This document shows positions 1,712 through 14,772 of a DNA stretch of 15,300 nt, piece after piece; the stretch's first letter is position 1; each line of letters starts with the position of its first letter. Under the pieces are notes generated by a model. It ran no database searches, was not told the origin of the DNA, and saw nothing but the letters and a program-made list of their open reading frames with translations. The position numbers were made by a program, and so were the translations under genes. Origin of the DNA: Victivallales bacterium (GTDB taxonomy: Bacteria > Verrucomicrobiota > Lentisphaeria > Victivallales > UBA1829); assembly GCA_016285335.1 (NCBI GenBank), contig JAEEQO010000053.1:1-15300 (forward strand), in the 5' to 3' direction.

Positions 1712-3100
1712 TCACATGTTGACGAAGAACTGGAATCCGGGGTAGGCTTCGCCGCCGTGTTCGCAGAGGTCGAGGCCGCGGAGTTCTTCTTCCTCGGAGA
1801 CGCGGATCCCGGTGGTCTTCTTCATCGCGAAGAAGATGGCGAAGGAGGAGGCGAACGAGACGAGTCCGATCACGACCGCGCCGAGGAGCTGCACCTTGAA
1901 CGTGTATTCCGGCACGACGGAGAAAATGCCGACCGCGAGCGTGCCCCAGACGCCGTTCACGAGGTGGACGGAGAGCGCGCCGACGGGGTCGTCGAGGTGG
2001 ATCCGGTCGAAGAGCACGACCGCGGGGACCACGATGACGCCGGCGATGAGGCCGATGATGACCGCCGAACCCACGCTCACGCAATCGGCGCCCGCGGTGA
2101 TGCCGACAAGGCCGGCCAGGCAGCCGTTCATGGTCATGGAGAGGTCGGGGTGATGCAGCATGATGCGGCTGGTGAGCATGCTGGAGACGACGGCCGCGCT
2201 GGCGGCGATCATGGTGTTCACGAGCACGAGGCTGACCTTGCTCGGATCGGCGTTCAGGGCGGACGCGCCGTTGAACCCGAACCAGCCGAGCCACAGCAGG
2301 AAGACGCCGATGGTCACGAGCGGCATGTTGTGGCCCATGATGGGCATGACCTTGCCGTCGACGTACTTGCCGATGCGCGGCCCGAGCAGGATCACGCCGG
2401 AGAGCGCGGCCCAGCCGCCCACGCTGTGCACGAACGTGGAGCCGGCGAAATCGTGGAAGTGCAGGGCGTCCAGCCAGCCGCCGCCCCATCCCCAGGAGCC
2501 GACGATCGGGTACACGACCGACACGTAGATTGCCGTGAAGATCAGGTAGCTGCTCAGCTTCACGCGTTCCGCCACCGCGCCGGACACGATGGTCGCGGCG
2601 GTCGCGGCGAACATGCCCTGGAAGAAGAAGTCCGTCCAGTACGTGAACTCGCCGTTGTGGTACAGGATCGGATCGCCCGCGGGCAGATGCAGGCCGAATC
2701 CGGCGAACCCGAACCAGTTGTTCCAGATCCAGTGCACGCCGGGGTACATCAGGGCGAACCCGCAGAACGCGTAGGACAGGAACCCGATCGCCGGGGTCAG
2801 GGAGTTCTTGAAAAGGATGTTGTTGCAGTTCTTGGCGCGGGCGAGACCGGACTCGACGCAGGCGAATCCGAGGTGCATCAGGAAGACGAGCATGCCGCCA
2901 GCCATGACCCACAGGTTGTTGACTGCGAACATCGCCAGGTCGGCGGTCGAGGGCGCGGGCGCGACTGCTTCCGCGACGGTTTCGGTCACTGCCGCGACCT
3001 GTTCGACCTGTGCGACGGCTTCGGCGGCCTGTTCCTCCGCCCCGGCGCAGATTCCAACGAAAACGAGGCTCATCAGAGCCGCTGTCAGGATTTTATTCAT
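1712..3100 (-). CDS. amtB: Ammonium transporter AmtB
   Basis: Inner-membrane channel of the Amt/Mep/Rh family, 462 residues, that conducts ammonium/ammonia into the cell. It has a cleavable-looking signal peptide (about 1-20), then an Ala/Glu/Val-rich stretch (21-55) and about eleven hydrophobic segments. The pore signature is intact: Asp217 in HDFAGSTFVHSVGG, the twin pore histidines His225 and His379 (in HLVNGVWGT), and the conserved FFFQGMFAATAATIVSGAVA segment (158-177). The C-terminal tail, with GLDLCEHGGEAYPGF, is the cytoplasmic region that docks P-II proteins in this family. The start is supported by AAGGA about 8 nt upstream. It lies 33 bp downstream of the P-II gene, the classical glnK-amtB pair, and should be co-transcribed from the sigma54 promoter at 3520-3535. 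Confidence 0.96.
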   Translation of the reverse strand: MNKILTAALMSLVFVGICAGAEEQAAEAVAQVEQVAAVTETVAEAVAPAPSTADLAMFAVNNLWVMAGGMLVFLMHLGFACVESGLARAKNCNNILFKNSLTPAIGFLSYAFCGFALMYPGVHWIWNNWFGFAGFGLHLPAGDPILYHNGEFTYWTDFFFQGMFAATAATIVSGAVAERVKLSSYLIFTAIYVSVVYPIVGSWGWGGGWLDALHFHDFAGSTFVHSVGGWAALSGVILLGPRIGKYVDGKVMPIMGHNMPLVTIGVFLLWLGWFGFNGASALNADPSKVSLVLVNTMIAASAAVVSSMLTSRIMLHHPDLSMTMNGCLAGLVGITAGADCVSVGSAVIIGLIAGVIVVPAVVLFDRIHLDDPVGALSVHLVNGVWGTLAVGIFSVVPEYTFKVQLLGAVVIGLVSFASSFAIFFAMKKTTGIRVSEEEELRGLDLCEHGGEAYPGFQFFVNM

Positions 3101-3133: not shown

Positions 3134-3475
3134 TTATCCGATTGCCTCGCTGCCGCGTTCGCCCGTGCGGATGCGGACGCATTCGTCGATGGGCAGCACG
3201 AAGATCTTGCCGTCGCCGATGTGGCCCGTGCGGGCGCCTTCGCAGATGCCTTCGATCGTGGGCTCCACGAAATCGTCGTTCACGGCGATCGCCAGGCGGA
3301 CCTTCTTCAGCAGGTTGACTTCCTGAAGCGCGCCGCGCCACATGTGAACATAGCCGCGCTGCTGGCCGCAGCCGAGCGCGTTCGTCACGGAGATCTTGAA
3401 GATTTGGCGGGCGTAGAGCGCCTGCTTGACGGGATTCAGCCGGTCGGGCTGGATGTACGCGATGATGAGTTTCAT
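3134..3475 (-). CDS. glnK: P-II family nitrogen regulatory protein (GlnK/GlnB type)
   Basis: At 113 residues this is the standard P-II length. P-II trimers bind ATP/ADP and 2-oxoglutarate and control AmtB, glutamine synthetase regulation and NifA- or NtrC-type regulators. Visible hallmarks are the T-loop region (about 36-55, GCGQQRGYVHMWRGA), the B-loop TGHIGDGKIFVLP (about 83-95) and the C-terminal RIRTGERG. Pairing with amtB argues for GlnK. The residue aligned with Tyr51, the uridylylation site of enterobacterial P-II, is Gln51, and position 46 is Trp, so control by classical uridylylation is unlikely; binding of effectors alone is the likelier signal. The start is supported by AAGGAG 8-9 nt upstream. 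It is the first gene of the operon, with a sigma54 promoter about 45 bp ahead of the ATG. Confidence 0.95.
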   Translation of the reverse strand: MKLIIAYIQPDRLNPVKQALYARQIFKISVTNALGCGQQRGYVHMWRGALQEVNLLKKVRLAIAVNDDFVEPTIEGICEGARTGHIGDGKIFVLPIDECVRIRTGERGSEAIG

Positions 3476-3519: not shown

Positions 3520-3535
3520 AGCACATCCCGTGCCA
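3520..3535 (-). promoter_or_regulatory. Sigma54 (-24/-12) promoter of glnK-amtB
   Basis: The minus strand reads TGGCACGGGATGTGCT, matching the RpoN consensus TGGCACG-N4-TTGCW at all but one of the specified positions and with exact GG-N10-GC spacing. The transcription start is expected near 3509, giving a leader of about 35 nt with a good ribosome binding site. Fourteen of its 16 bases are the same as in the gltB promoter, including the GGAT spacer. Confidence 0.88.
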
Positions 3536-3575: not shown

Positions 3576-3621
3576 ATGTTTTACAAAAACGGGGGAGTGC
3601 TGACCACAAAATGTAAAACAT
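3576..3621. repeat. Inverted repeat upstream of glnK, possible activator site
   Basis: Arms ATGTTTTACA (3576-3585) and TGTAAAACAT (3612-3621) are perfect 10-bp inverted copies around a 26-bp spacer. They contain the TTACA and TGTAA half-sites that form the tight palindromes upstream of gltB, here 31 bp apart. The centre lies about 77 bp upstream of the glnK -12 element, a plausible enhancer position. The repeat also sits 17 bp before the -35 box of the divergent GyrI-like gene. The function is inferred. Confidence 0.55.
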
Positions 3622-3715: not shown

Positions 3716-4231
3716 ATGGAAATCCAGCCTGTTATCAGACATCATAACGAACTTACCGTTATCGGCTGCTCCATCGTCATCAGAAGCGGGGAGGGCAACA
3801 CGAAATGCCCCGAATTCTGGAACGAATATGCACAGAAATTTTCACGCCTGTTCCGGACCATGAAGCCGGAAACGCCGGAGGAACAGGCTGTTTTAGATAA
3901 CAGCATCGGACAGTACGCCGTCTGCCGCTGCCTGAAAAGCGAGGGACAGGGGGACGCGTTCGAGTACCTGATCTGCGGCGAATACAAGGGCGGGCCAGTG
4001 CCGGAGGGCATGAAACTCTTCACGCTTCCCGAATCCGACTGGGCGGAATTCCGCTGCAAGGGCGCGCTGCCGAAAACGCTGCAGGACCTTTACGACGCCG
4101 CGTACGGGACCTGGCTGAAGGACAACCCGGAATACCAGGGACTCGGCATCGACATCGAGAGTTACACCCCCGGCGATCCCGCCGCGCCGGACTACGAGTG
4201 CAGCCTCATCCTCCCGGTGAAAAAAGCGTGA
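3716..4231 (+). CDS. GyrI-like / AraC effector-binding domain protein, stand-alone
   Basis: At 171 residues this is a single GyrI-like small-molecule-binding (SHS2/SOUL-like) domain with no DNA-binding region. The C-terminal half is typical: LYDAAYGTWLKDNPEYQ, then GIDIESYTPGD and the final strand DYECSLILPVKK. Such domains bind hydrophobic or cationic ligands in transcription factors of the AraC and MerR types, and the stand-alone forms are ligand-binding or hydrolytic proteins of mostly unknown substrate. The start is set by AAAGGA 7 nt upstream and a good sigma70 promoter. It is transcribed divergently from glnK-amtB and convergently towards the NifA-like gene, and nothing ties it to nitrogen metabolism beyond position. 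No terminator is evident in the 66 bp that follow. Confidence 0.85.
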   Translation: MEIQPVIRHHNELTVIGCSIVIRSGEGNTKCPEFWNEYAQKFSRLFRTMKPETPEEQAVLDNSIGQYAVCRCLKSEGQGDAFEYLICGEYKGGPVPEGMKLFTLPESDWAEFRCKGALPKTLQDLYDAAYGTWLKDNPEYQGLGIDIESYTPGDPAAPDYECSLILPVKKA

Positions 4232-4297: not shown

Positions 4298-5818
4298 TCA
4301 GGATTCTTTTTTGACGCCGAGGCGGTTCATCCGGTAGTTCATCATGCGCGGGGAAAGCCCGAGCGAACGTCCGGCGGCGGAGAGGTTGCCGTCGTTCTTG
4401 CGGATGGCGTCCTGAAGGATTTCGCGTTCGTAGTTGGCGAGCAGGACTTCGAGCGTGGAGGAGTCGTTGTCGGAGGCGGAAGCGCCGCCGGACGCCTGGA
4501 CCGCCTGAAGCGAGGGCGGGAGGTTGTGCCCGTGGACGCAGTCGCCTGTGGCGGTGAGCACGGCGCGCTCCATGCAGTTTTCGAGCTCGCGGACGTTGCC
4601 GGGCCAGCTGTAGTTCATCAGCAGGTGGATCGCGCCGGGGGAGATCTTGCGGATCGCCTTGTTGTACTTCACGTTCAGGTTTTCGATGAAGTATTCGGCG
4701 AGCAGGATGATGTCACTCTTGCGCTGTGCCAGGCTCGGCATCATGATGGGGAAGATGTTCAGGCGGTAGTAGAGGTCCTCGCGGAAGAGCTTCTTTTCCA
4801 TGAGCTCCTCGAGGTTTCGGCTGGTGGCGGCGAGGAAGCGCACGTTGGAATGCAGCTCCTCGTTGCTGCCGACGCGGGAGAAGGTGCGTTCCTGCAGGAA
4901 ACGCAGGAGCTTGACCTGGGTCTGCATGGTCAGGTCGCCGATCTCGTCGAGGAAGAGCGTGCCGCCGTCGGCTGCCTCGGCGCGTCCGATGCGACGGCTG
5001 ACCGCGCCGGTGAACGCGCCTTTTTCGTGGCCGAAGAGCTCGCTTTCCACGAGGTTTTCGGGCAGGGCGGCGCAGTTCAGCGTGATGAACGGCTTATTCT
5101 TGCGGCCGGAGAGTTCGACGATGGCGTGCGCGAGAAGTTCCTTGCCGGTGCCGCTCGCCCCGCGGATCAGGACCGTGGCGTCGGAGGGCGCGACCTGGCG
5201 TAGCTGTTCGTAGACCATCTGCATCTCGCGGCAGTTGCCGATCATCTTGCCGGGGGCCTTCTGAAGCATGCTGCGGAGCTTGCGGTTTTCCTCGAGCAGG
5301 GATTCGCGTTCGTCGTGGATCTCCGTGCAGGCGGCCGCGGCGTCGGCGGTCAGGTTCGCAATGATCTCCAGGAACGCGACGTCGCGGTCGAGGTCGGTGT
5401 CCGGCAGGACGGGACGGTCGATGGAGAGCGTGCCGATCACGCTGTCGTGATGGATCAGCGGGACGCAGAGGAACGCGACCTGTTCGGTGTAGTTGCGTGC
5501 GCCCGTGCGGTTGAGGAACCGGCTGTCGTTGCGGAGATCGGGAATCACATGGCTGACGCCTGTTTCGGCGACATGCCCGGTGATGCCTTCGCCGATGCGG
5601 TAGTGACCGAGCTTCTTCTCTGTTTCGGCGAGTCCGCGCGAGACTTCGATCCGCAGGGTGTCCCCGTACAGAAGCGCAAACGTGCCGCGGATCATGCCCA
5701 GGTCGCTTTCGAGGATGGAGAGCACGCTTTCGAGAAGCGCCTCCACGTCGCGTTCGCGGGTGATGACCGTGCTGACTTTCTGGATTACGAGGATTTGCGG
5801 ATCGATGACATTTTTCAT
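4298..5818 (-). CDS. NifA-like sigma54-dependent transcriptional activator (GAF-AAA+-HTH)
   Basis: The 506-residue enhancer-binding protein has an N-terminal GAF domain (about 20-165) with a NifA-like sequence (GEGITGHVAETGVSHVIPDL). A short coiled linker (165-190) follows, then an AAA+ domain (about 190-420) and a Fis-type helix-turn-helix at the C-terminus (about 477-500, NLSAAGRSLGLSPRMMNYRM). The AAA+ motifs are complete: Walker A GASGTGKE (220-227), the sigma54-contacting GAFTGA loop (267-272), Walker B GGTLFLDE (285-292), arginines in FREDLYYR (345-352) and WPGNVRELEN (405-414). Cys415 and Cys427 have the C-X11-C spacing known from oxygen-sensitive NifA proteins, but the later C-X4-C pair is absent. 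There is no receiver domain, so it is not NtrC. It is the third gene after gltB-gltD (43-bp gap), with a candidate promoter of its own. It is the probable activator of the three sigma54 promoters here (inference). Confidence 0.92.
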   Translation of the reverse strand: MKNVIDPQILVIQKVSTVITRERDVEALLESVLSILESDLGMIRGTFALLYGDTLRIEVSRGLAETEKKLGHYRIGEGITGHVAETGVSHVIPDLRNDSRFLNRTGARNYTEQVAFLCVPLIHHDSVIGTLSIDRPVLPDTDLDRDVAFLEIIANLTADAAAACTEIHDERESLLEENRKLRSMLQKAPGKMIGNCREMQMVYEQLRQVAPSDATVLIRGASGTGKELLAHAIVELSGRKNKPFITLNCAALPENLVESELFGHEKGAFTGAVSRRIGRAEAADGGTLFLDEIGDLTMQTQVKLLRFLQERTFSRVGSNEELHSNVRFLAATSRNLEELMEKKLFREDLYYRLNIFPIMMPSLAQRKSDIILLAEYFIENLNVKYNKAIRKISPGAIHLLMNYSWPGNVRELENCMERAVLTATGDCVHGHNLPPSLQAVQASGGASASDNDSSTLEVLLANYEREILQDAIRKNDGNLSAAGRSLGLSPRMMNYRMNRLGVKKES

Positions 5819-5861: not shown

Positions 5862-7241
5862 TCACGTCAAATCCCGGATGATTTCGCGGACGGCGTCCCT
5901 GGCGTTCGCCATGGCGCGGACCACGAGCGAGGCTCCGGTGGCGCAGTCGCCGACCGTGTAGACGTGGTGTTCCGGGTCGGGGATCAGGCCGTTGCGGGGT
6001 GTCATTTTAAGCTGGAGATCGGCGGCCGGACCTTCGGGGGCGGCTCCGGTGAACCCCATCGCGAGCAGGATGAGGTCCGCTTCGATGATGCGCGTGGAGT
6101 TCTCGACTGCGACGGGCTTCAGCGGCTTGCCTTCGGGCGTGGTCTCCCATTGGACCGAATGCACCTCGACTCCGGTCAGCACGCCGTTTTCGCCGAGGAA
6201 ACGGTCGCTCGCCACGTTCCATTCGCGTTCGCAGCCTTCCTTGTGGCTGGAACTGGTACGGAGCATCCACGGCCACGCGGGCCACGGGGTGGAGGCGGAA
6301 CGCGTCTCCGGCGGCATGGGCATGATCTCGACCTGTTTCACGCTGGCCGCGCCCTGACGGATGGCGGTGCCGGCGCAGTCGCTGCCGGTGTCGCCGCCGC
6401 CGATGATGAGCACGCGTTTTCCCGCAGCGTTCACGGGGAGCGTCCGGGCTTCGCCGCCGTTCAGGCGGTTCTGCCCCTGCAGGAATTCGAGCGCGAAGTG
6501 GACGCCGTTGAGTTCGCGTCCGGGTATCTTCAGGTCGCGGGCGCAGGCGGTGCCGATGGCGAGCACGACGGCATCGAAGTTGCGGCGGAGGTACTGCCCG
6601 GCCACGTCGACGCCGATGCGGCAGTCGGTCTGGAATTCGATCCCGGCCTGGCGCATCAGGGCGATGCGGCGGTCGATGACGTGCTTGTCGAGCTTGAAAT
6701 CGGGGATGCCGTAGCGGAGCAGTCCGCCGGGCTTGTGATTGGCTTCGAAGACGACGACCTGGAATCCGGCGCGATTCAGCGCTTCGGCGGCGTACAGGCC
6801 GGAGGGACCGCTGCCGACCACCGCGACGCGCTTGCCGTTGCGGACCGCGGGGACGGCCGGCGTCACCCAGCCGTTTTCGAACGCGTTTTCGACGATGACC
6901 TTTTCGCACTGGCGGACCATGACGGGGTCGTCGTTGACGCCGTTGCAGCACGCGCCTTCGCAAAGGGCGGGGCAGATGCGGCAGGTGAATTCCGGGAAGA
7001 AGCTCGTTTCGGAGAGAATGCGCCACGCGGTCAGCCAGTCGCCTTCGGCGGCTGCGCTGTTGAAGTCGGGGATGACGTTTCCGAGCGGGCACCCGGCGCC
7101 GTGGCAGAACGGCACGCCGCAGTTGTGGCAGCGGAGCATCTGTTCGTGGATCTGTTCCTTCGTGAGGCGGATTTCGACCTCGCTGAAGTCGTGTCTGCGT
7201 TCTTCGACGGGGCGGTAGATATCGTGAATGCGGTTTGTCAT
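5862..7241 (-). CDS. gltD: Glutamate synthase, small (beta) subunit
   Basis: This is the 459-residue FAD- and Fe-S-containing NAD(P)H oxidoreductase subunit that feeds electrons to GltB for glutamate formation from glutamine and 2-oxoglutarate. The N-terminal Cys clusters that ligate 4Fe-4S centres are complete (Cys38, 41, 46, 51 and Cys87, 90, 94, 98). The FAD-binding GSGPSG motif lies at about 143-148, the NAD(P)H-binding IIGGGDTGSDC at about 279-289, and the C-terminal FAD-contacting VYTVGDCATGASLVVRAMA near 425-443. The conserved PWPAWPWMLRTSSSHKEGCE block is present. The start is supported by AAGGAG about 10 nt upstream, and the gap to gltB is only 18 bp, so the two are co-transcribed and probably translated in concert. 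Length and motifs match a functional GltD; the nucleotide preference (NADH or NADPH) cannot be read from the sequence. Confidence 0.96.
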   Translation of the reverse strand: MTNRIHDIYRPVEERRHDFSEVEIRLTKEQIHEQMLRCHNCGVPFCHGAGCPLGNVIPDFNSAAAEGDWLTAWRILSETSFFPEFTCRICPALCEGACCNGVNDDPVMVRQCEKVIVENAFENGWVTPAVPAVRNGKRVAVVGSGPSGLYAAEALNRAGFQVVVFEANHKPGGLLRYGIPDFKLDKHVIDRRIALMRQAGIEFQTDCRIGVDVAGQYLRRNFDAVVLAIGTACARDLKIPGRELNGVHFALEFLQGQNRLNGGEARTLPVNAAGKRVLIIGGGDTGSDCAGTAIRQGAASVKQVEIMPMPPETRSASTPWPAWPWMLRTSSSHKEGCEREWNVASDRFLGENGVLTGVEVHSVQWETTPEGKPLKPVAVENSTRIIEADLILLAMGFTGAAPEGPAADLQLKMTPRNGLIPDPEHHVYTVGDCATGASLVVRAMANARDAVREIIRDLT

Positions 7242-7259: not shown

Positions 7260-11672
<4,413 letters not shown>

Positions 11673-11724: not shown

Positions 11725-11740
11725 AGCATATCCCGTGCCA
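11725..11740 (-). promoter_or_regulatory. Sigma54 (-24/-12) promoter of gltB-gltD-regulator
   Basis: The minus strand reads TGGCACGGGATATGCT, one mismatch from TGGCACG-N4-TTGCW, with GG-N10-GC spacing. The transcription start is expected near 11714, about 42 nt before the gltB ATG. Confidence 0.88.
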
Positions 11741-11773
11741 AAATTCCATTCAGCGTAAAAGCCTTTTGTGGTG

Positions 11774-11788
11774 TTACAAAAAATGTAA
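11774..11788. promoter_or_regulatory. Palindrome TTACA-N5-TGTAA (site 1), probable activator binding site
   Basis: Perfect inverted repeat TTACA AAAAA TGTAA. Its centre (11781) is about 55 bp upstream of the gltB -12 element and 84 bp upstream of the purF-like -12 element. It is a candidate upstream activating sequence for the NifA-like regulator. It differs from the classical NifA TGT-N10-ACA and NtrC TGCACC-N5-GGTGCA sites. Confidence 0.65.
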
Positions 11789-11804
11789 TCGCGAAATATG
11801 GCGG

Positions 11805-11819
11805 TTACAGGATTTGTAA
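11805..11819. promoter_or_regulatory. Palindrome TTACA-N5-TGTAA (site 2), probable activator binding site
   Basis: Perfect inverted repeat TTACA GGATT TGTAA. Its centre (11812) is 31 bp, about three helical turns, from site 1 and 53 bp upstream of the purF-like -12 element, mirroring the distance of site 1 to gltB. The spacer differs from site 1 while the arms are the same, which points to selection on the arms. Confidence 0.65.
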
Positions 11820-11850
11820 AGCCAATGGCGTGTTTTCGCCTCAAACGTTT

Positions 11851-11866
11851 TGGCATGTTTGATGCT
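11851..11866 (+). promoter_or_regulatory. Sigma54 (-24/-12) promoter of purF-like-carA-pyrG
   Basis: The plus strand reads TGGCATGTTTGATGCT, two mismatches from TGGCACG-N4-TTGCW, with the invariant GG (11852-11853) and GC (11864-11865) at exact spacing. The transcription start is expected near 11877, giving a leader of about 54 nt with AAAGGAG (11914-11920) ahead of the ATG at 11931. It diverges from the gltB promoter across the shared palindromes. Confidence 0.75.
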
Positions 11867-11930: not shown

Positions 11931-13655
11931 ATGTCTGATGCGGTCAAACACGAATGCGCGGTCGCTCTGCTCCGTCTCCGGAAGCCGCCCGAGTACTACT
12001 TCAGCAAATACGGCAGTGCCGACTACGGATTCAGCAAGATGGCCCTGCTGCTCGAAAAACAGCACAACCGCGGTCAGGACGGCGCGGGCATCGCGTCGCT
12101 GTACCTGAACCCGGAGCCGGGCACGCCGCCTTACCATGTGGAACGCTCCGCCGCGTCGGAAGACCCGCTGGCCGACCTGCTGGGACGCTGCGGCGGCGCG
12201 CCGGGATTCGACGGCGGACTCCTGCTGGGGCATCTGCGGTACGCGACCTACGGACGGCACGAAGTTTCCGCGTGTCATCCGTTTGTGCACGATTCGAACT
12301 GTCTGCGGCGGACGCTGCTGCTGGCGGGCAACTTCAACCTCACGTCCGCGCAGGACCTCTTCGACAGGTTCCTGAAGCTGGGGCATCATCCGAAGAGCCG
12401 GGCGGACGGCTACCTGATCCTCCAGACCATCGCGCACTATCTGGAGCAGGATTCGAACCTGCATCCGGGCCAGCCGGACTGGGCGAAGATCCTCCGGCAG
12501 GCGCTGAACAACCTCGACGGCGCGTTCACCCTCTGCGGCTTCAACGGCGCGGGCGACGCATTTGCGATCCGGGACCCCCATGCGATACGTCCCGGATATT
12601 TTTATTTTGACGACGAAGTGTTTACGGCGGCCAGCGAACGCCCCGCGATCCAGGCGGCGTTCGACTGCTCCACGTCCGAAGTCATGGAGATCCCGCCCGG
12701 AAAGGCGGTCGTCGCAAGCGCGGACGGCAGCGTGGAGATCCTCGACTGCCTCGACCAGGCGGAACGCCGCAGCTGCGTCTTCGAGCGCATCTACTTCTCG
12801 CGTCCGAACGACGCGGACGTCCACCGCGAACGCCGCCACCTCGGCAAGGCGCTCGTCCCGGCTGTCCTTCAGGCGGCGGACAACGATTTCGACAACACGT
12901 TCTTCAGCTGCATCCCGAATTCCGCCCGCGTAAGCTTCCTCGGCATGCTCGAAACGCTGATCCCGGTCGCCTCGCATCAGGACAAACAGGTGCGGTTCGG
13001 CGAGATCGCGGTGAAGGACGCCAAGTTCCGCACGTTCATCGCCGACGCCGACAGCCGCAAGGAACTCTACATGCACGTGTACGATGTGACCTACGGGCTG
13101 GTCCGCCCCTGCACGGACTCGCTCGTGGTCGTCGACGACTCCATCGTGCGCGGCAACACCATGCGGAACGCGATCCTGCCGATCCTGGACCGCCTCGGCC
13201 CGAAACGCATCATCGTGGCGAGCTCCGCGCCGCCGGTCAAATACCCCGACTGCTACGGCATCGACATGGCGTCGGCGGGCGACCTCGTGGCGTTCCGCGC
13301 CGCCGTCTCGATCCTGAAGCGCACCAACCGCGTCACCGTCCTGAACCGGGCGTACGAGGCCGCGAAGAAGGCGCTGAAGAACAGTGCGGTCCCGTGCGGG
13401 AACCACATGAAGGAAGTGTACGACGCGATCCCGGAGGAAGAGCTTCACGCGGAGATCGCGAAGCTCCTGACCCCGCCGGGCCTGAAGGCCGAACTGAAGG
13501 TCGTCTACCAGACGATCGACGCGCTGCGATCCTGCTGCCCGGAGTATCCCGGCGACTGGTATTTCACGGGCGAATACCCGACCCCGGGCGGGTTCCGCAT
13601 GGTGAACCGCGCCCTGGTCCAATTCATGGAAAACAATCACGAAAGAGCATACTGA
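11931..13655 (+). CDS. purF: Amidophosphoribosyltransferase, PurF-like (long form)
   Basis: At 574 residues this is a two-domain enzyme expected to make 5-phosphoribosylamine from PRPP and glutamine, the first step of purine synthesis. The class II glutaminase domain has the nucleophile Cys9 (after propeptide MSDAVKHE), KQHNRGQDGAGIAS (43-56), GHLRYATYG (100-108) and GNFNLT (133-138). The phosphoribosyltransferase domain keeps the PRPP loop VVVDDSIVRGNT (about 399-410). It resembles the longer, divergent PurF-like proteins I associate with Bacteroidetes (HECGVA, KQHNRGQ) more than the usual enzyme of about 500 residues. The residue after the nucleophile is Ala rather than the usual Gly. The ATG at 11931 is chosen because AAAGGAG lies 10 nt upstream and because it leaves a propeptide of normal length; an upstream TTG at 11886 has no such support. 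The symbol is tentative, since a second purF may exist elsewhere. Confidence 0.88.
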   Translation: MSDAVKHECAVALLRLRKPPEYYFSKYGSADYGFSKMALLLEKQHNRGQDGAGIASLYLNPEPGTPPYHVERSAASEDPLADLLGRCGGAPGFDGGLLLGHLRYATYGRHEVSACHPFVHDSNCLRRTLLLAGNFNLTSAQDLFDRFLKLGHHPKSRADGYLILQTIAHYLEQDSNLHPGQPDWAKILRQALNNLDGAFTLCGFNGAGDAFAIRDPHAIRPGYFYFDDEVFTAASERPAIQAAFDCSTSEVMEIPPGKAVVASADGSVEILDCLDQAERRSCVFERIYFSRPNDADVHRERRHLGKALVPAVLQAADNDFDNTFFSCIPNSARVSFLGMLETLIPVASHQDKQVRFGEIAVKDAKFRTFIADADSRKELYMHVYDVTYGLVRPCTDSLVVVDDSIVRGNTMRNAILPILDRLGPKRIIVASSAPPVKYPDCYGIDMASAGDLVAFRAAVSILKRTNRVTVLNRAYEAAKKALKNSAVPCGNHMKEVYDAIPEEELHAEIAKLLTPPGLKAELKVVYQTIDALRSCCPEYPGDWYFTGEYPTPGGFRMVNRALVQFMENNHERAY

Positions 13656-13656
13656 C

Positions 13657-14772
13657 ATGAACGATTTCAAAGAGATTTGGAAACAGCAGAGGGAACGCAA
13701 GGCGTTTCTCGCTCTCGCAGACGGCGCGGTCTTTCACGGCTGCGCCTTCGGCTATTTGCACGACTGCACGGGCGAGGCGGTCTTCAACACCGGCATGACC
13801 GGGTATCAGGAGATCATTTCCGATCCGTCCTACGCGGGGCAGTTCGTGACGCTCACGACCGCGGAAGTCGGCAACTACGGCTGCAATCAGGCGGACATGG
13901 AATCGCGCGGATGCTTCCTGAACGGACTGGTGATCCAGGAATTGAACCCCGCCTCCAACTGGCGGTCCGAGGAAGACCTCGACGCTTTCATGACGCGCCG
14001 CCGCAAGCCCGGCCTCGCCGGCGTCGACACGCGCGCGCTGACGCTTCACCTGCGGACTCACGGCAGCCAGAAAGCCTATCTGCACGTGAGCGAGGAGGAA
14101 ATCACCGAGGCGGAGGCGGTCCGCCGGGCGCAGGAATGGGAAGGACTCGACGGCCGCGACTACGCCTCCATCGTGACGACGCCGGTGCCGTACGACTGGA
14201 ACGACGCCGGGAAATACCGCGTGATCGTGTACGATTTCGGCGTGAAATACAACATCCTGCGGATGCTCGCCGCAAACGACGTCCGCGTGACGGTCGTCCC
14301 CGCCGCGACGCCCGCGGAAACGGTGCTGGCGGAAAACCCGGACGGCGTGTTCCTGTCCAACGGTCCCGCCGACCCGTCCGCCGTAACCTACGCCATCGAC
14401 AACATCCGCCTGCTGCTGGGACGCGTCCCGATGATGGGGATCTGCCTCGGCCACCAGCTGCTCGGCCTGGCATGCGGCGCGAAATGCGGCCGCCTGAAAT
14501 TCGGCCACCACGGGTGCAACCACCCTGTGAAAAATGTCCTGACCGGCGAAGTCGCGATCTCCAGCCAGAACCACAACTTCGCGCTGGCGGACCTGCCCGC
14601 CGACCTTGAATTGACGCACATCAATCTGAATGACAATACAATCGAAGGGATCCGGCACAAGTCGCTCCCGGCGTTCAGCGTGCAGTACCACCCGGAGGCC
14701 GCTCCGGGCCCGCACGACGCCGCCAGCCTCTTCGCCGCGTTCCGCAACCTCATGGAGGATTTCAAAGCATGA
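13657..14772 (+). CDS. carA: Carbamoyl-phosphate synthase, small (glutaminase) subunit
   Basis: The 371-residue protein hydrolyses glutamine and passes ammonia to the large subunit CarB for carbamoyl phosphate, the precursor of pyrimidines and arginine. The N-terminal CarA domain contains [20 protein letters not shown] (43-62) and [12 protein letters not shown] (122-133). The class I amidotransferase domain (about 188-368) has LSNGPADP (233-240), nucleophile Cys263 in GICLGHQ, and His345/Glu347 in [10 protein letters not shown]. About 15 extra residues precede the usual CarA N-terminus. The ATG is one base after the purF-like stop, with only a weak GAAAGAG as ribosome binding site, which suggests translational coupling. 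The stop overlaps the pyrG start. No carB follows directly, so the large subunit must be encoded elsewhere or further on. Confidence 0.96.

Follow-up and report, generated by a model that had tools for sequence, protein, structure and literature searches.

The intergenic region between gltB and a divergently transcribed purF-like gene raises the question of whether its two outward-facing sigma54 promoters are served by one shared enhancer or by separate sites, and which regulator would act there. The window, that is the whole stretch of 15,300 nucleotides analysed from a Victivallales bacterium, carries on its minus strand gltB (7260-11672; Pfam, and NCBIfam NF008730 above cut-off), coding for the large subunit of glutamate synthase; gltD (5862-7241; Pfam), coding for the small subunit and starting 18 bp after gltB; and, 43 bp after gltD, a gene for a GAF-AAA(sigma54)-HTH_8 activator (4298-5818), the third gene of a presumed gltB operon. 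On the plus strand lie the purF-like class II glutamine amidotransferase gene (11931-13655; Pfam GATase_6, with the purF model TIGR01134 at 141 bits, below its cut-off of 350) and carA (13657-14772; PF00988, PF00117), coding for the small chain of carbamoyl-phosphate synthase. Beyond the activator gene by 822 bp, also on the minus strand, are glnK (3134-3475; PF00543), coding for a P-II protein, and amtB (1712-3100; PF00909), coding for an ammonium transporter. The plus-strand gene at 3716-4231, between glnK and the activator gene, codes for a GyrI-like/Cass2 effector-binding protein, for which a link to nitrogen is not evident. The region 11725-11866 very likely acts as a single bidirectional sigma54 enhancer within a nitrogen-assimilation regulon, at which the activator encoded at 4298-5818 occupies two palindromes and both outward promoters are served.

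Motif scanning places the -24/-12 box of the gltB-gltD-activator operon, TGGCACGGGATATGC, at 11740-11726 on the minus strand and that of the purF-like/carA operon, TGGCATGTTTGATGC, at 11851-11865 on the plus strand; together with the next base, each is the 16-mer put forward in the original prediction. Both boxes match the pattern TGGCAY-N7-GC of sigma54-dependent promoters. Between them lie two exact TTACA-N5-TGTAA palindromes, TTACAAAAAATGTAA at 11774-11788 (proximal to gltB and distal to the purF-like gene) and TTACAGGATTTGTAA at 11805-11819 (proximal to the purF-like gene and distal to gltB), 31 bp apart from start to start. They are jointly centred on 11796.5, and the point halfway between the two GC elements is 11795.5. 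The distances from the GC element to the palindrome centres are 54.5 and 85.5 bp on the gltB side and 52.5 and 83.5 bp on the purF side. The geometry originally described thus holds throughout, with the promoter-site distances right to about 1 bp.

Six palindromes with at most two mismatches are present in the window as compared with 0.60 expected, and none of 200 shuffles reached six. When the 258-bp intergenic region was subjected to 10,000 dinucleotide shuffles, at least one exact palindrome arose in three and two palindromes in none, while TGGCAY-N7-GC boxes on both strands arose in three. A loose sigma54 scan of the whole window (at most two mismatches) stayed at chance level, with 14 matches found and 14.2 expected, and a repeat search of the control region under default settings found no repeats. 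Some 18-20 bp ahead of the -24 box a T-rich element is seen, both in the window (11741-11773 and 11820-11850) and in the profiled pattern loci. An IHF site between palindrome and box was considered and rejected, as inspection by eye gave no good match. A third exact TTACA-N5-TGTAA palindrome, at 10573-10587 within gltB, recurs in gltB of some relatives; it is probably accidental and was rejected as a regulatory site because it is spelled by the codons for RYTKCK.

A further -24/-12 box, TGGCACGGGATGTGC, was identified by motif scan upstream of glnK-amtB (3521-3535, minus strand), where it aligns with a like box in three related loci (L196, L199 and L206). It is accompanied by upstream half-sites spanning 3581-3616, the outer halves being TTACA at 3581-3585 and TGTAA at 3612-3616 and the inner halves degenerate. 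Both outer half-sites occur at nearly the same places in L196 and L199, and the second is displaced in L206. This box with its half-sites is an addition to the features first noted. Within the window's group, the promoters of gltB, purF and glnK also contain a TTTTCCGCCTGAAA-like block.

Of the 80 loci that a scan with the purF-like protein gave, the analysis covered ten belonging to the window's side of the tree (L001-L008, L010 and L015). An alignment of 12 sequences was made from the window and 11 close relatives found by pattern scans (L178-L188), all from the class of genome G002, the genome of L002 (Victivallales), with gltB 94-96% and the purF-like protein 88-93% identical to those of the window over the compared parts. 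Such an alignment of orthologous regions, proposed as a check along with the original prediction, finds the palindromes conserved. In their half-sites 18 of 20 columns are invariant, compared with none of 10 in the N5 spacers, 22 of 30 in the two boxes and 36 of 198 in the remaining region. Both boxes are kept in all 12 sequences, as is the palindrome at 11805-11819 in exact form; the palindrome at 11774-11788 is exact in ten. An extra TGTAA half-site between the palindromes occurs in ten of the 12 and is absent from the window and L181. RpoN (PF04552) was found in all 30 relatives sampled, a sample that lies outside the window's own genome.

The divergent layout itself recurs. Of the 30 class-of-G002 loci retrieved (L165-L194), 22 have a palindrome flanked by outward boxes: 11 of these stand between gltB and the purF-like gene, seven between gltB and glnN, the gene for type III glutamine synthetase (L167, L173, L174, L175, L177, L191 and L192), and four between other genes (L168, L169, L189 and L194). 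Across all 66 pattern loci examined (L129-L194) the box-palindrome-box layout is present in 27. Several relatives (L002, L003, L006 and L007) carry glnN followed by the purF-like gene and carA, which suggests that, in the window's group, the glnN promoter has been replaced by the purF promoter.

The wider distribution of the sites was surveyed with a pattern consisting of the palindrome, 12-72 bp and a sigma54 box, the same pattern run backwards serving as control. The genomes scanned belong to the classes of G006 (288 genomes), G002 (197) and G001 (188; Akkermansia sp.); the class of locus L002 is represented by Victivallales and that of L006 by Kiritimatiellae. The pattern gave 110 matches in 46 of the 288 genomes in the class of G006 (3 backward) and 67 matches in 31 of the 197 in the class of G002 (3 backward), numbers from related genomes, for which p-values overstate the evidence. 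Among the 188 genomes in the class of G001 the N5 pattern was at control level, with one match forward and one backward. The 66 pattern loci include some that share a genome, nine that came from a separate scan (9 matches, 1 backward), and a subset, L129-L137, that overlaps the genomes of the class-of-G006 scan. In 53 of them the promoter faces a homologue of gltB, gltD, glnN, glnK, amtB, the purF-like gene or the activator gene. Among the other 13, Pfam searches identified asparagine synthase (L131), the large chain of carbamoyl-phosphate synthase (L146) and glutamate dehydrogenase (L153 and L154). The translations at L160 and L161 are about the same protein as that at L153, and the promoter sequence of L149 is that of L146; L176 gave no Pfam match, the pattern match at L190 looks like chance, and L145, L162, L189 and L193 make up the rest. 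Palindrome and sigma54 box together mark mostly promoters of nitrogen genes, a nitrogen-assimilation regulon.

The gaps between palindrome and box are not spread evenly. They cluster mainly at 21-22, 31-34, 43-44, 54-55 and 63-65 bp, with a periodicity of 10.6 bp (pooled R 0.85, n=177). The Rayleigh R at this period is 0.876 in the class of G006 (n=110) and 0.818 in the class of G002 (n=67), and the maxima in 20,000 uniform simulations for each were 0.31 and 0.39, respectively. Removal of the commonest gap class (29-35) leaves R at 0.822 and 0.795, and restriction to the 88 unique promoters gives 0.804. Even with each of the 25 distinct gaps counted once, R is 0.59, a value that 20,000 random draws never reached. 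In the control region of the window, each palindrome stands in phase with each box, the gaps being 33 and 64 bp on the gltB side and 31 and 62 bp on the purF side. With what we take to be the usual geometry between box and transcription start, palindromes at gaps of 32 and 21 would be centred near -66 and -55, respectively.

The sites had at first seemed close for sigma54 enhancers. In the excerpts available of the sources compared, this stands against NtrC, for which the review PMC7408454 puts the minimum working distance at 70 bp, and against the Clostridiales activators, whose sites lie mostly 100-250 bp upstream (PMC6615313). It does not stand against Desulfovibrio vulgaris, in which, according to the excerpted text, the nearest activator site is within 100 nt for the largest fraction of sigma54 promoters (PMC4641369).

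The divergent geometry is conserved and sets each site in helical phase with each promoter, which fits the shared enhancer originally proposed. A competing explanation, unlikely though still to be taken seriously, is that two independent promoters merely occupy one intergenic region, each depending on its own proximal palindrome with no joint complex. It would be favoured by the 52 of 88 unique promoters whose nearest palindrome lies at a gap of 31-34 bp, which implies that a single site may suffice, and by L181 and L182, in which the gltB-proximal palindrome has one changed base and both boxes are kept. Against it, both palindromes are present in all 12 aligned sequences, those two included, with their spacing fixed at 31 bp, whereas the box distances vary by 2-3 bp (gaps of 33-36 bp on the gltB side and 31-33 bp on the purF side). 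Ahead of the activator gene, L084, L085, L091 and L252 also have a palindrome pair 30-32 bp apart, so that the pair looks like a unit.

The protein encoded at 4298-5818 has the features of a bacterial enhancer-binding protein, an AAA+ domain with GAFTGA and a Fis-type helix-turn-helix (HTH). It contains a GAF domain, a Sigma54_activat domain (PF00158, 1.9e-69) and a Fis-type HTH (PF02954, 6.1e-07), with GASGTGKE at residue 220, GAFTGA at 267 and the recognition helix SPRMMNYR at 489. It is named here as the probable binder of the TTACA-N5-TGTAA palindromes because its orthologue co-occurs with the pattern and because its recognition helix predicts the type of site. With orthologue thresholds of 1e-178 and 1e-185, chosen after the scores were known, the pattern is found in 41 of 67 genomes with an orthologue and 5 of 221 without in the class of G006, and in 28 of 67 with and 3 of 130 without in the class of G002. 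Conversely, the exact N5 pattern is absent from 26 of the 67 orthologue-bearing genomes in the former class and 39 of the 67 in the latter, and the N4 sites described below account for only part of these 39. Among the eight pattern genomes that lack an orthologue at threshold, the matches in G295 and G619 look like chance.

Close upstream palindromes at the activator's own gene occur in a minority of orthologues only. The whole pattern lies within 400 bp upstream in 9 of the 69 orthologues from pattern-bearing genomes. A palindrome with at most one mismatch lies within 300 bp upstream in 10 of 81 orthologues of at least 57% identity, as against 0.52 in mononucleotide shuffles, and six of these 10 have two or more. 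Among the 26 more distant homologues (below 57%), a mix of paralogues and distant orthologues, a palindrome was found upstream of one, L088, which is 55% identical. In L082, L084, L085 and L091 a TATACT-like -10 element was seen by eye near the activator start, with the palindromes upstream, suggesting that in these loci the gene may be expressed from a sigma70 promoter with autoregulation.

The recognition helix provides a second association between activator and site. In the first orthologue set, the N5 pattern was found in 37 of 50 genomes whose helix has no His at position 6 (SPRMMNYR-like) and in one of 26 with His, and the gltB upstream regions of many His-type genomes contain the same half-sites at N4 spacing. 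A scan for N4 sites in the class of G002 gave 38 matches in 29 of the 197 genomes and none backward; the class of G006 was scanned for N5 only. The clearest division, selected after the table was known, is at helix position 5 in 73 helices from the class of G002, a tally that drops G527. With Ile or Leu at this position, N5 sites occur in 0 of 41 genomes and N4 sites in 24 of 41; with other residues the numbers are 27 of 32 and 2 of 32. The two N4 exceptions are G597, with the helix SQRIMHYK, and G577, whose two activators carry SPRMMNYR and SERIIHYK and which has both types of site (L208, L370 and L288); its N4 site is found some 120-140 bp before the second activator's gene. The division by His in the same class, which includes the misframed G527, gives N5 sites in 24 of 29 genomes without His and 4 of 45 with it, and N4 sites in 2 of 29 and 24 of 45. 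In the class of G006, N5 sites occur in 41 of 61 genomes without His, the misread G371 among them, and in none of five with it. These tallies omit second activator copies (G577 and G669) and G302, and the helices of G570 and G564 were taken from the 3' piece on account of an in-frame stop. The helix predicts the type of site, SPRMMNYR-like helices going with N5 and SPRV[IL]HYK-like helices with N4, with the same half-sites. Relative to the box, both types have their dyad centres on one and the same face (phase 8.1 bp for N5 and 8.4 bp for N4), and the N4 gaps are less tightly phased (R 0.58, n=38) than the N5 gaps (R 0.85, n=177).

That the palindromes bind some other regulator, such as a nitrogen repressor or a general dimeric factor, while the activator drives the boxes from elsewhere, is improbable. 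The idea draws plausibility from how common such palindromes are among dimeric regulators of unrelated families; yet the type of site follows the activator's own helix, the pattern co-occurs with the activator gene, and the palindromes are phased to the sigma54 box. Nor was a second motif of comparable information found in the stretches that were profiled, namely the 31 bp preceding the box and, around the palindrome, the 10 bp preceding it and the 19 bp following it. Chance or an artefact of base composition, for which only the loose sigma54 scan of the window would speak, has a negligible probability given the shuffles, the backward control in 485 genomes and the conserved half-sites with variable spacers.

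Under the shared-enhancer reading, nitrogen shortage would lead activator dimers to bind the two TTACA-N5-TGTAA palindromes, where the AAA+ ring would assemble and contact sigma54-RNA polymerase at either outward promoter through a very short loop. Since each promoter has one palindrome at three helical turns and the other at six, one bound complex would present the same face to both, and direct or near-direct contact over these turns would give rise to the helical rule. Both gltB-gltD-activator and purF-like-carA would be switched on, and the position of the activator gene in the gltB operon would add positive feedback on the activator. The nitrogen signal may enter through the GAF domain, through GlnK, or through both; the GAF domain and the neighbouring glnK suggest, by analogy with NifA, control by 2-oxoglutarate or P-II.

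As to known systems, the palindrome fits neither the NifA nor the NtrC consensus, in line with the original prediction, and assignment to either was rejected on account of half-sites and spacing. The NtrC site is GCACY-N5-RGTGC, with half-sites GCAC/GTGC in a 5-5-5 layout. The NtrC enhancers of enterobacteria, at glnA and nifLA, resemble the present region in serving sigma54 nitrogen promoters from 5-5-5 palindromes placed upstream, but the half-sites here are TTACA/TGTAA. The activator differs from NtrC in possessing a GAF domain and no receiver domain, and its score with TIGR01818 is 306.9 bits, below the cut-off of 558.6. Dependence on the face of the helix is said to have been found at nifLA by Minchin in 1989, as cited in PMC7408454. 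Facing is perhaps less important at glnA, according to the excerpted text of PMC7408454, and the proximal sites here, centred near -65 to -67, fall inside the 70-bp minimum quoted there.

NifA shares with the activator the GAF-AAA-HTH architecture; nifA is its best NCBIfam model, and the NifA chain 9qq6 its best solved-structure match by sequence. However, the TIGR01817 score of 448.9 bits is below the cut-off of 528.85, the match stops at residue 430, before the HTH, and the targets here are assimilation genes. The upstream activating sequence (UAS) of NifA, as given in the excerpted text of PMC6615313, has TGT and ACA 10-12 bp apart, unlike TTACA-N5-TGTAA. The sigma54 regulons of Clostridiales (PMC6615313) and Desulfovibrio (PMC4641369) are alike in that comparative genomics defined activator groups each with its own UAS motif, and unlike in the placement of sites, reported in those excerpts as mostly 100-250 bp upstream in the former and with the largest fraction within 100 nt in the latter. 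The word 'helical' is absent from the available text of both papers, and neither title is on the lineages studied here. The NifA-like homologues Nlh1 and Nlh2 of Aquifex are likewise GAF-type sigma54 activators (4g3k and 4g3v; PMC9866876, in excerpt); among solved structures only their GAF domains are represented, and these match the activator weakly.

In kind, then, the region is a sigma54 enhancer and not categorically new. No account of the regulator clade, its site, the close helical rule over many promoters or the N4/N5 switch was found in the literature searched, and the open-licence PMC literature searched yielded no work on nitrogen control of this kind in these lineages. To our knowledge, the whole-turn rule for close sigma54 activator sites is otherwise known only from single test promoters. 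It is fairly likely that the classes of L002 and L006 harbour a clade of nitrogen master activators undescribed in the searched papers, with close enhancers at whole helical turns (10.6 bp) and a switch between 15-bp and 14-bp dyads (TTACA-N5/N4-TGTAA) that accompanies the change of helix. If so, nature would offer an example of an activator that has shifted its dyad spacing across a whole regulon with the half-site sequence unchanged, and the N4/N5 pairs of site and helix would form a ready set on how a Fis-type HTH dimer sets spacing. For nitrogen control in these lineages, the analysis puts forward a regulator together with its proposed binding site and regulon, and offers a many-promoter sequence case for close sigma54 activator sites kept at whole helical turns. 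The divergent region would allow a compact in vivo test of joint service of two sigma54 promoters by a single enhancer; a shared switch would most likely join the making and the spending of glutamate and glutamine.

Sites of the N4 type were also found in the class of G001, at 85-145 bp from the box, with 27 matches in 15 of the 188 genomes, a noisier scan given the 11 matches in 10 genomes obtained backward. The outward pairs there lie 121-134 bp from the boxes, outside the short-range rule, and carry little weight, as most of the loci are homologous; they look like the same divergent idea at longer range. Outward boxes around paired N4 palindromes were seen in nine of these genomes (L312-L331: G029, G105, G110 and others), and in G029, G105 and G110 the pair is located directly upstream of gltB.
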